DNA of 37,437 nucleotides from Gallionellaceae bacterium (GTDB taxonomy: Bacteria; Pseudomonadota; Gammaproteobacteria; Burkholderiales; Gallionellaceae), in assembly GCA_009885195.1 (NCBI GenBank), contig VFLG01000037.1:1-37437 (forward strand), written 5' to 3'. How positions within the stretch are numbered: the first letter of the stretch is position 1; the number at the start of each line of letters is the position of its first letter. Below the pieces are notes generated by a model that ran no database searches, was not told the origin of the DNA, and saw only the letters and a list, made by a program, of their open reading frames with translations. Below, piece after piece: positions 4,564 to 33,880 of the stretch. The translations under genes and the position numbers were made by a program.

Positions 4564-6468
4564 TTATAGCCCCGCATTTTGCAGCGTTTGGAGGAATTGC
4601 GCTGCATCCTGATAGCCGGTCACGCGGTGTTCGCCCTGCTCGCGCCCCTGTCCATCAAAAAACAAAATGGCGGGCGGGCCATATAAGCCAAAACGCTTTA
4701 GCAGCGCCTTGTCCTCGTCGTTGTTGGCGGTCACGTCGGCTTGCAGCAGCAGGGTGTTTTTCAGCTTGGCTTGCACCTTGGCATCGGCAAAGGCGTAGCG
4801 TTCCATTTCCTTGCATGACACACACCAGTCGGCATAAAAATCCAGCATTACAGTTTTGCCGCGCACCTGCGCGATGCGCGCATCCAGCTCGGCGACATTT
4901 TTCACCCGCACGAATTGCAGGCTTGTGTGTGCCCCTGTTTGGGCACTGCCGAACCCGCCCAGCGGGCGCAGAATGTCGCGCGCGCCGGACAGCGCGCCGA
5001 TCAGGTAGGCAATGCCGAGCAGTAGGGTGAGGATACCGATACCCTTCCACAACTTGTGCCAGCCGGAGGCATTGTGCGGCAACGCATCCAGCGCATGCAG
5101 GTGAATGGAGGAGAGCACCAGCAATGCGGCCCACAACAGCATTTGCACGCCCAGCGGGATCAGCGGGGTAATAAGCCAGATGGCAACCGCCAGCAGCAGT
5201 ACGCCGAAGAAGCGCTGGACCGATTCCATCCACGCGCCGGCTTTGGGTAGCAAGGTTCCGGCGGAGGCGCCAATCACCAACAGCGGCACACCCTTGCCCA
5301 TTGCTAAAGCGAATAACGCCGTTGCCCCCAGCACAGCGTCATTCGTCTGCCCGATATATAACAATGCCCCTGCCAGCGGGGCAGCAACGCATGGGCCGAC
5401 AATGACGGCGGATAAGGCGCCCATCACAAACACCCCGCTCAGGTGGCCGCCATGCAGGCGGTTGCTGGTGTTGGTCAGCCTACTTTGCAGAGCAGCGGGT
5501 AGCCGCAATTCGTAAAATCCGAACATGGATAGGGATAACAGCACGAATATCCCGGCAAAACTGCCCAGCACCCAGGGTGTTTGCAGGGCATTGGTCAGCA
5601 GCGTGCCGGACAGCCCGGCGGCCACACCGACTGCGGCGTAGGTCAGCGCCATGCCGAGCACGTAAGCCAACGACAAAATAAATCCGTGCATTTTGGTCAG
5701 GTTGGGGCCATGTCCGACAATGATCCCGGACAAAATAGGTATCATGGGGAGCACGCAGGGAGTAAAAGCGAGCAACAATCCGGCGCCGAAGAAGAACGAC
5801 ACAATCAGCCAGAAGTTGCCTTGTTTGAACAGTTTGGCAATTTGTGATTGTTCGCTATCAGTGGGGGATGATACGGCCTGGTTTTGCTGTGCCGGACTTG
5901 CCGCAAAATTTTCTTGCTCAGCCGCTGTCGTGGCTGGCGTATTAAAGGACTTGGTAGCTACTGAAGACTGTATATCTGCTGCGGGCAGCGCAATGCTGAA
6001 TTGTTTGTCGATCGGCGGGTAGCACAAGCCCTTATCGCTGCATCCCTGATACGTGGCTTGCAGCATAATGGTCTGTGCCGCATTGCCGATGCGTTCGAGC
6101 GTAATCTCGGCCTGAAACGGCTGGAAGAACACCTCCATGTCGCCGAAATTGGCGTCATATTTCATTTCCCCCCTGGGCGTGGTTACCTTCGTGATTCTGA
6201 CGCCCGCAGCTTTTGCCGACTCGGGTGTTATATCGAAGCCGACCTTGTCGCGATATAAATAGTAGCCGGGGGTGATCTTGAAGTCTACCGTCAGGGTGCG
6301 CCCATCACGCACATTGATACTCAGCCCGAACGCCTGATCCGGGGGTAAAAATTTGGGCTGCTTGGCGCCGCCCAGCAGCGGCAAGCGATCCAGGAAGCTT
6401 TCGGCATGTAGCGATGGAGCCGCAGCAAAGCACAACATCAGCAGTAGTGCATAACGCATGGTTTTCAT
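4564..6468 (-). CDS. dsbD: Thiol:disulfide interchange protein DsbD
   Basis: N-terminal DsbD domain, polytopic membrane core with TPCVLPMIPILSG, C-terminal thioredoxin-like DFYADWCVSCKEMERYAF. Confidence 0.94.
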   Translation of the reverse strand: MKTMRYALLLMLCFAAAPSLHAESFLDRLPLLGGAKQPKFLPPDQAFGLSINVRDGRTLTVDFKITPGYYLYRDKVGFDITPESAKAAGVRITKVTTPRGEMKYDANFGDMEVFFQPFQAEITLERIGNAAQTIMLQATYQGCSDKGLCYPPIDKQFSIALPAADIQSSVATKSFNTPATTAAEQENFAASPAQQNQAVSSPTDSEQSQIAKLFKQGNFWLIVSFFFGAGLLLAFTPCVLPMIPILSGIIVGHGPNLTKMHGFILSLAYVLGMALTYAAVGVAAGLSGTLLTNALQTPWVLGSFAGIFVLLSLSMFGFYELRLPAALQSRLTNTSNRLHGGHLSGVFVMGALSAVIVGPCVAAPLAGALLYIGQTNDAVLGATALFALAMGKGVPLLVIGASAGTLLPKAGAWMESVQRFFGVLLLAVAIWLITPLIPLGVQMLLWAALLVLSSIHLHALDALPHNASGWHKLWKGIGILTLLLGIAYLIGALSGARDILRPLGGFGSAQTGAHTSLQFVRVKNVAELDARIAQVRGKTVMLDFYADWCVSCKEMERYAFADAKVQAKLKNTLLLQADVTANNDEDKALLKRFGLYGPPAILFFDGQGREQGEHRVTGYQDAAQFLQTLQNAGL

Positions 6469-32425: not shown

Positions 32426-32541
32426 TTCAGTCTTTGGGAAGATACCGGATTATACATGGCGACATAAATGGAAAGCATCTTGTGGTTCGGTGCGTTTGGC
32501 CGCACCTCAAGCGTATCCGATTTATGCCACCGTGTATAAAA

Positions 32542-32569
32542 TTGACTTCCACTCTCGAAACCTTACAAT
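32542..32569 (+). promoter_or_regulatory. Sigma70-like promoter reading toward the attC-like site and lipoprotein ORF
   Basis: TTGACT (32542-32547), 16 bp, TACAAT (32564-32569). Confidence 0.5.
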
Positions 32570-32598
32570 CCCCATAAGTTCCGCTCTACGCAGGTTCA

Positions 32599-32682
32599 GT
32601 CCAACTGAGGCTTATCCGCCGCCGATAGGCGGTGGGTGTAACAAGCTTGGGCGGGGCGGCGGATAAACGCTATTCGTTAGAC
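32599..32682 (+). other. Putative integron attC recombination site
   Basis: R''-like GTCCAAC (32599-32605), L'' TTATCCGCCGCC, L' GGCGGCGGATAA (12-bp perfect complement), R'-like GTTAGAC (32676-32682; fits GTTRRRY); 84 bp. Confidence 0.6.
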
Positions 32683-32715
32683 CCAAGTAGTTTCATCCAC
32701 AAAGGGAGGTTTGCA

Positions 32716-33099
32716 ATGAAGAAATATATCGCTATAGCAGTAGCAGTATTGGTTTCGTCGTCCTTGTCAGGTTGTGCAGCCATGTTTCATGGCACAACCC
32801 AGCAGGTCTCAGTTAGAAGCAATGTTCCGGGCACTGAGCTATTCGTCAACGAGGCTTACGTTGGCAAAGACAATGGTGTTACCACCTTTCAAAAAAGAAA
32901 AAACTACATGATCACCGCTCGAAAGGCCGGTTGCACTGACACAACGGTCCCTGCTTCGAAGTCGTTTGACGTAATTACTCTACTTGGCCTCTTCATCGAC
33001 TATGGAATTATTTCCATTTTACTTATTGACGGTGCCGCCACTGGCGCATGGCAAGAGTTTGATCAAACCAGCTATGTCATTGACCCGCGTTGTGCCTAA
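32716..33099 (+). CDS. Small putative lipoprotein, PEGA-like segment; candidate integron cassette cargo
   Basis: MKKYIAIAVAVLVSSSLSGCAAMFHGTTQQVSVRSNVPGTELFVNEAYVGKDNG...; lipobox LSGC; SD gggagg upstream; stop codon inside GCCTAAC. Confidence 0.75.
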   Translation: MKKYIAIAVAVLVSSSLSGCAAMFHGTTQQVSVRSNVPGTELFVNEAYVGKDNGVTTFQKRKNYMITARKAGCTDTTVPASKSFDVITLLGLFIDYGIISILLIDGAATGAWQEFDQTSYVIDPRCA

Positions 33100-33145
33100 C
33101 GAGTAAGGTTAGATTGTGATCGCGAAGCGAGCCACAATCTGAACC
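33094..33145 (+). other. Putative degenerate/truncated attC: R'' box plus hairpin, no recognisable R'
   Basis: GCCTAAC (33094-33100), then ggttagattgtg..tcgcgaagcga..cacaatctGaacc (33107-33145) with one bulged G. Confidence 0.45.
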
Positions 33146-33157
33146 GTTTGTTTGTAT

Positions 33158-33276
33158 CGTTCCCACGGTCTCCGTGGGAACGCCTCTGTGGACGCTCCGC
33201 GTCCTGTGCCGCAGGAGCGGCACAAAGCTGCGCTCCCACGCCTGTCCTGAGCCTGTCGAAGGGCGGAGCGTGGGAA
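33158..33276. repeat. Mosaic palindromic intergenic repeat (GTTCCCACG..CGTGGGAAC family)
   Basis: cgttcccacgg tct ccgtgggaacg (33158-33182), gacgctccgcgtc, tgtgccgcaggagcggcaca, cctgtcctgagcctgtcgaagggcgg, terminal gcgtgggaac. Confidence 0.8.
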
Positions 33277-33404
33277 CAATGAGTTATTGGTTTAATCAGC
33301 GAAAATCTGCGGACAATTGCTTTTTGTAGGTTTATCCTAAAAAAGCAGATGTATCCTGTAGGAGCAGCCCACTCTTGTGATTCAAATCAGATGTCGAGGT
33401 ATAA

Positions 33405-33433
33405 ACAAAAAAAGCGGCCAAAGCCGCTTTTCT
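33405..33433 (-). terminator. Rho-independent terminator of the atp operon
   Basis: Stem aaagcggc/gccgcttt downstream of atpC; T-run on the minus strand. Confidence 0.8.
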
Positions 33434-33454
33434 TGTCGCGCGCCATCATCATGT

Positions 33455-33880
33455 TTAATGACTTTGCTTGCGCAGTTTCTGTATCGCCTGCAACTGGGCA
33501 ATCGCCTCGGCCAGCTCGGCTTGTGCCGCGGCGTAGTCAATGTCAGAAGTGCGGTTTTTCATCGCATCTTCTGCGGCGCGCTTGGCTTCCAGTGCGCGCG
33601 CTTCGTCCAGATCGCCGCCACGGATAGCGGTGTCGGCCAGGATGGTGACCATATCTGGCTGCACTTCCAGCATGCCGCCGGAAACATAAATCAGCGTATC
33701 TTCGCTTTGGTTCGGCAGCTTGAGGCGTACTGAACCCGGCTTGATGCGCGTCAGCAGCGGGGCATGGCGTGGATATATACCCAATTCACCCATTTCACCC
33801 GGCACCACGACCATTTCAGCAAGGCCGGAAAAAATTGATTCCTCTGCGCTCACCACATCGACATGAACAGTCATTGCCAT
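33455..33880 (-). CDS. atpC: ATP synthase F1 epsilon subunit
   Basis: [46 protein letters not shown]. Confidence 0.95.

Follow-up and report, generated by a model that had tools for sequence, protein, structure and literature searches.

A probable remnant of a two-cassette array, begun by a truncated IS91-type unit, in the glmU–atpC spacer of a Gallionellaceae bacterium

The spacer between glmU and atpC in the window, by which we mean the whole 37,437-nucleotide stretch of contig VFLG01000037.1 that was analysed, probably (at a rough probability of 0.72) holds the remnant of a two-cassette array without an integrase, whose cassettes would have been inserted by IntI at a GTT target of the attG type and whose first member would later have lost its transposase part by deletion. 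Cassettes outside integrons are a kind already known; the twist is that an IS91 unit forms the first cassette. The initial annotation had recognized integron cassette material outside an integron, which is borne out by the box-to-box identity with a cassette of another phylum, by the homology of the hairpin and by the lack of the insert in relatives. It had also called the cassette solitary, which does not hold, since a truncated IS91-type cassette precedes the one that encodes a lipoprotein. The features are as follows.

1–110: attI sequence
152–322: intI remnant, 56 codons
31052–32425, minus strand: glmU
32540–32679, plus strand: truncated 3' end of a cassette with tyrosine recombinase and IS91-family transposase, delimited by alignment with four genus copies and by the covariance model R2
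32542–32569, plus strand: promoter-like TTGACT-N16-TACAAT, directed towards the lipoprotein gene and recurring in homologues
32599–32682, plus strand: attC assigned to the truncated IS91 cassette from its boxes, stem, descriptor match, R2 homology and flanks
32599–32605, plus strand: R'' GTCCAAC
32612–32623 and 32655–32666, plus strand: 12-bp stem
32676–32682, plus strand: R' G^TTAGAC, with the next cassette starting at TTAGAC
32677–33100, plus strand: body of the lipoprotein cassette, which begins at the R' crossover point and includes all of R'', delimited by box-to-box identity with the copy in locus L090
32716–33099, plus strand: lipoprotein ORF (P0001), 127 aa, predicted lipoprotein with lipobox LSGC and GGGAGG upstream
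33094–33152, plus strand: putative degenerate 3' attC, with R'' GCCTAAC, a hairpin (z −4.18) and then G^TTTGTTT in place of R'
33455–33880, minus strand: atpC

The glmU–atpC spacer of the window measures about 1,030 bp. Among the 21 genomes compared, which belong to the same genus, family or order, the gap is 81–164 bp wherever both genes are measurable (21/21) and contains the atp terminator and little else; the window retains the motif of this terminator, GTATAAACAAAAAAAGCGGCC, near 33400–33434. The difference in length indicates that the lineage of the window gained an insert. Comparison of this spacer had been suggested at the outset, where the two genes were described as commonly close neighbours, and integron-free relatives with the same lipoprotein gene and flanks had been named, together with a low attC-model score, as what would speak against a cassette; the relatives lack the insert. 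None of them is related closely enough for the empty site to be reconstructed at base resolution. Rfam gave no match anywhere in the window.

The lipoprotein body, which on the evidence of its sequence is a real gene cassette, lies between GTTAGAC at 32676–32682 (G^TTRRRY) and GCCTAAC at 33094–33100 (RYYYAAC), the latter containing the TAA stop codon of the ORF. A homologous cassette is found in a Nitrospirae genome, CG2_30_70_394 (locus L090): the two bodies share 89.6% of their DNA (396/442 aligned bases), the blastn match runs in the window from 32674, just before GTTAG, to 33100, the end of R'' GCCTAAC, and the encoded lipoproteins are 87% identical. The Nitrospirae copy stands alone as a cassette and has its full attC (L090 4940–5450; attC 5382–5444), scored at 55 bits (E 1.3e-11) by a model built without that attC. 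It sits in the ribosomal protein operon, with infA on one side and a small ORF, rpmJ judging from its sequence, on the other; its junctions, ..TATC G^TTAGGC-cassette-attC-G^TTAGGGG.., imply insertion into the infA stop codon; its ORF and attC point the same way. The cassette has thus been mobile between unrelated hosts and sites. Comparison of codons between the two copies gave a dN/dS of 0.25, indicating purifying selection on the lipoprotein gene.

The initial reading of the 127-residue ORF with its Shine–Dalgarno sequence, and of its stop codon as embedded in GCCTAAC, was accurate, and the lipobox LSGC is in keeping with the suggestion, still a prediction, that the product is exported. The lipoprotein scored 12.8 bits against the PEGA-domain profile, below the Pfam cut-off of 20.8, and its structure model is of low confidence (pLDDT 54). 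It is missing from the other genomes of the genus at E ≤ 1e-6 and gave no phage match; plasmids contain only two distant relatives. Other relatives, in loci L089 and L091, are stand-alone genes devoid of cassette features. A more distant one lies in the superintegron region of Vibrio sp. HDW18 (NZ_CP049914.1; L111 3590–3974), where a PEGA-domain protein is 58% identical over 86% of the query. It resembles the ORF of the window in that its start lies 6 bp after a GTTAGGC box, but it is inverted relative to the VCR sites and has its own terminator.

The 84-bp site at 32599–32682 had been described as attC-like, with R'', a 12-bp stem and R', all of which are in place: the boxes follow the consensus and pair, and the inner stem is formed. 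With the descriptor RYYYAAC...GTTRRRY, pairing of at least 6/7 between the boxes and a threshold on stem length, 3.74 Mb of dinucleotide-shuffled window gave no match at a stem of at least 12 bp and one at a stem of at least 8 bp; the two-box hairpin is therefore not a chance pattern. The free folding energy of the hairpin by itself is unremarkable (z −1.65). A covariance model built from four homologous end hairpins, the window being left out (R2), matched 32594–32679 with 53.5 bits (E 1.1e-11) in the plus direction, against 15.4 bits on the minus strand. The model of the main attC type of the genus (R1) gave 5.8 bits, on the minus strand, with no full-length plus-strand match listed for 32599–32682. 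This miss was at one point considered as evidence against an attC and was dropped when a plasmid search yielded homologous hairpins. The site belongs to an attC type other than the main one of the genus, so that a low attC-model score, proposed at the start as half of the grounds for rejection and indeed obtained with R1, would mislead here. The practical lesson is that this site escapes an attC model trained on a single type.

That the site is an attC is thus upheld by R2, but its assignment to the lipoprotein cassette is not: the 84-bp site is, as far as its sequence tells, the attC of the truncated cassette that precedes, and an attC of the lipoprotein cassette itself would have to follow its ORF on the 3' side, as the complete one does in the L090 copy. 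The window aligns with the ends of the four genus copies over about 32540–32680, and no significant similarity was found to the left of 32540. Only the last ~140 bp of this left cassette are left in the window, its transposase and recombinase genes being absent. The four copies detected by R2 in genomes of the genus have the recombinase and the transposase upstream in two cases, and the plasmid search with the insert revealed similar hairpins in Polaromonas. One of these lies ~250 bp downstream of a transposase that matches the IS91 family with 390 bits and is itself preceded by a tyrosine recombinase. A related transposase (56.6%) is found in a class 1 integron of Escherichia coli, pM216_AC2 (NZ_AP018145.1), in which the recombinase–transposase pair takes up a single cassette position, flanked by aac(6')-IIa and aadA4, and the end hairpin runs into the G^TTAGGC of aadA4; this junction and the R2 score together tie the site of the window to known cassette junctions. 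The units extend over 2484–5070 in L173, 4777–7272 in L103, 15916–18414 in L098 and 1502–4088 in L170. In the plasmid of Polaromonas JS666 (L171 4995–5545) the IS91 cassette end is reduced to its final 25 bp; GTTAGGT comes next, then an ORF resembling a GFA-family protein and ACCTAAC, which again make up a cassette-like body.

The promoter-like TTGACT-16-TACAAT is present at 32542–32569 as initially noted, and by itself is no better than chance (1 found against 1.2 expected in shuffles). It recurs in the homologues: within the genus, all four copies of this cassette end have TTGACG and TACAAT 15–16 bp apart, pointing outward. A promoter in the end of the first cassette may drive the lipoprotein gene.

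On the 3' side, the hairpin at 33094–33152 is significant (z −4.18) and unrecognized by the attC models. No plasmid relatives of it were found, nor is it related to the attC of the Nitrospirae copy; the two bodies are nearly identical and the change falls exactly at the R'' box. The hairpin is similar to a short attC with an R' box rebuilt from target sequence. Beyond it, at 33154–33290, lies a dispersed palindromic repeat, GTTCCCACG..CGTGGGAAC, which has an 82% identical copy on contig C80 (L068 1183–1269) and many shorter matches across the same genome.

According to the reading that we prefer, an IntI of the lineage would have inserted both cassettes, that of the IS91 type and that for the lipoprotein, jointly or in succession, into the spacer at a chromosomal GTT target; the lipoprotein body would have been joined at the G^TT crossover point of the attC of the IS91 cassette, and the transposase part of the first cassette would have been lost afterwards, in place. 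Counting against it are the failure to find an intact intI in the genome (72% complete), the unrecognized putative 3' attC, the extra bases on the L' side of both hairpins and the distance of the relatives available for defining the empty site. A possible alternative, to which we give somewhat less than even credence, differs in the order of events and in what chose the site: the IS91-type element would have entered a GTTT target before the lipoprotein cassette, which IntI would then have recombined into the attC at the end of the element, the right junction G^TTTGTTT being the element's old flank. Three Polaromonas plasmids do have the IS91 end beside flanks that are not cassettes (GTTATCA, GTTGTTA and GTTATCT), and elsewhere it precedes cassettes; joint insertion is, however, equally compatible with the data when neither an empty nor an intermediate site is at hand. 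It is tempting to speculate that the IS91 unit is a travelling cassette whose end serves both as attC and as outward promoter, landing in and outside integrons as an expressed landing pad that seeds chromosomal arrays, with the window as a decayed example; we consider this extension rather doubtful.

If the locus had housed an old resident integron whose intI was deleted, no secondary-site insertion would be involved, and the genome does contain four decayed intI starts, most of them with attI sequence and one of them at the start of the window. Against this, none of the 21 relatives shows an integron trace at the glmU–atpC locus, and no attI or intI remnant is found near 32540–33150, which makes a resident integron improbable. 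The lack of an adjacent integrase gene had been remarked on from the start; the nearest intI remnant, at 152–322, is about 32 kb away from the insert. The genus itself is rich in integrons: 13 of its 19 genomes have intI matches at E ≤ 1e-30 (12 of them above the family cut-off), and attC matches occur in 18 of the 19, many of them as isolated, dispersed sites. In the window's own genome, which is 72% complete, no intact intI was found; nine attC candidates lie on eight contigs (the three weakest at E 0.009–0.05), and several of them are single cassettes beside housekeeping genes.

IntI-mediated insertion, as we prefer it, has also to be weighed against IS91-type rolling-circle transposition alone, in which the hairpin would be the origin end of a transposon and G^TT its target preference. 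IS91-type elements have a hairpin end adjoining a short fixed target, and the transposase is of the IS91 family. The left end of the intact elements is, however, likewise fixed at G^TT (G^TTGAACTAAAC; left-end sequence of the IS91 cassette, GTTGAACTAAACNGC), and it directly follows attI in one genus genome (G015:C93) and attCs in another (G012:C76) and in pM216; in pA29BJ2 it lies at a site with no noted integron features. Moreover, in G012 the 5' box GTTGAAC and the R'' of the same element (GTTCAAC) are reverse complements, with a mismatch of one base in the others, a pairing that fits what a circular cassette requires. Finally, among ten copies of the hairpin the left side is conserved while the right flank after GTT varies, and 7/10 right flanks start with GTTAG, as in cassettes. 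Environmental bacteria of one genus, a Polaromonas plasmid and a class 1 integron of E. coli all harbour the unit with G^TT at both ends. Transposition alone is thus an unlikely origin, and the recombinase–transposase element is, in its architecture as read from the DNA, a gene cassette.

The same flank pattern bears on the orientation of the array. Were the array on the minus strand, with the ORF inverted in its cassette, the bulged bases and spacer lengths of both hairpins would fit canonical attCs better, and the 5.8 bits of R1 are indeed on that strand. The two extra bases of 32599–32682 lie in L' and not on the L'' side, and those of the 3' hairpin are also on the L' side; in attCs of the genus the excess of unpaired bases is on the L'' side in 47/73 and on the L' side in 13/73. 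Nevertheless, the conserved left side and variable flank after GTT place R' on the right, R2 strongly favours the plus strand and the ORF and attC of the Nitrospirae copy share one direction, so that this arrangement is largely refuted and very improbable. An ordinary chromosomal lipoprotein gene behind a chance hairpin, for which one might invoke the stand-alone relatives in L089 and L091, is barely conceivable, being refuted by the box-to-box identity with a cassette of another phylum and the hairpin homology, and the gene is absent from the locus in relatives and, at E ≤ 1e-6, from the rest of the genus.

The remnant array may be compared with several known systems. CALIN and single-attC elements are defined in IntegronFinder 2.0 (PMC9024848), and the two cassettes here resemble them in having no integron integrase alongside. 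A CALIN has two or more attCs away from any intI; here one site is an attC by homology and the other a putative, degenerate one, with no intI match near. The array differs also in that the first attC is of a type that R1 misses and the left cassette is truncated. IntI is reported to insert cassettes into attG sites of the chromosome (Loot et al. 2024, Nat Microbiol 9:228, as cited in PMC12901181 and PMC12444791); the likeness to that account lies in a G^TT junction between a cassette and DNA outside integrons, of which the infA copy in L090 is a clean example, whereas in the window the left cassette is truncated, so its target cannot be read base by base. The unit in pM216_AC2 has a homologous end hairpin, G^TT at both ends and a position between cassettes, but is complete with recombinase and transposase where the window keeps the last 140 bp only. 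An earlier mention of attC sites at the ends of the IS91-like element ISCR28 (PMC12772301) describes an IS91-like transposase gene followed by attC, as here; set against that description, the type of unit found in the window differs in also having a tyrosine recombinase.

The insert is thus a well-bounded natural case of cassettes outside integrons and illustrates how cassettes scatter through chromosomes. The lone, 89.6% identical insert in the ribosomal operon of another phylum makes insertions in core-gene regions directly comparable. The insert also ties the dispersal of cassettes to a cassette-like IS91-type unit that bears a promoter-like motif at its end and is common to environmental bacteria, plasmids of Polaromonas and a class 1 integron of E. 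coli.

Several minor observations concern the integrons of this genome and genus. The first base of the window falls exactly at the attI crossover point (AAC, the complement of G^TT) and is followed by the attI/promoter region and then the intI remnant. The end of contig C19 (L134) shares the same 109 bp; joined to the start of the window, it would place a GIY-YIG-like cassette, together with that attI and an attC, next to gcvT. The contig break at the crossover could reflect a first cassette that varies in the population. In another genome of the genus, contig G012:C86 (L070 1501–2445) encodes an integrase identical over 315 residues to the class 1 IntI1 of clinical plasmids, possibly a contamination. 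Mini-integrons with one to three cassettes each are found in the window's own genome on contigs C4 (L067), C75 (L119), C38 (L135), C29 (L136) and C43 (L139), beside rplU, livF/apaG and mutM. The intI remnant in C4, C75, C38 and C41 is always the 5' end, of about 37–57 codons, and N-terminal intI fragments recur in other genomes of the genus; these 5' ends may have been kept for the cassette promoter, or may have spread together with attI.
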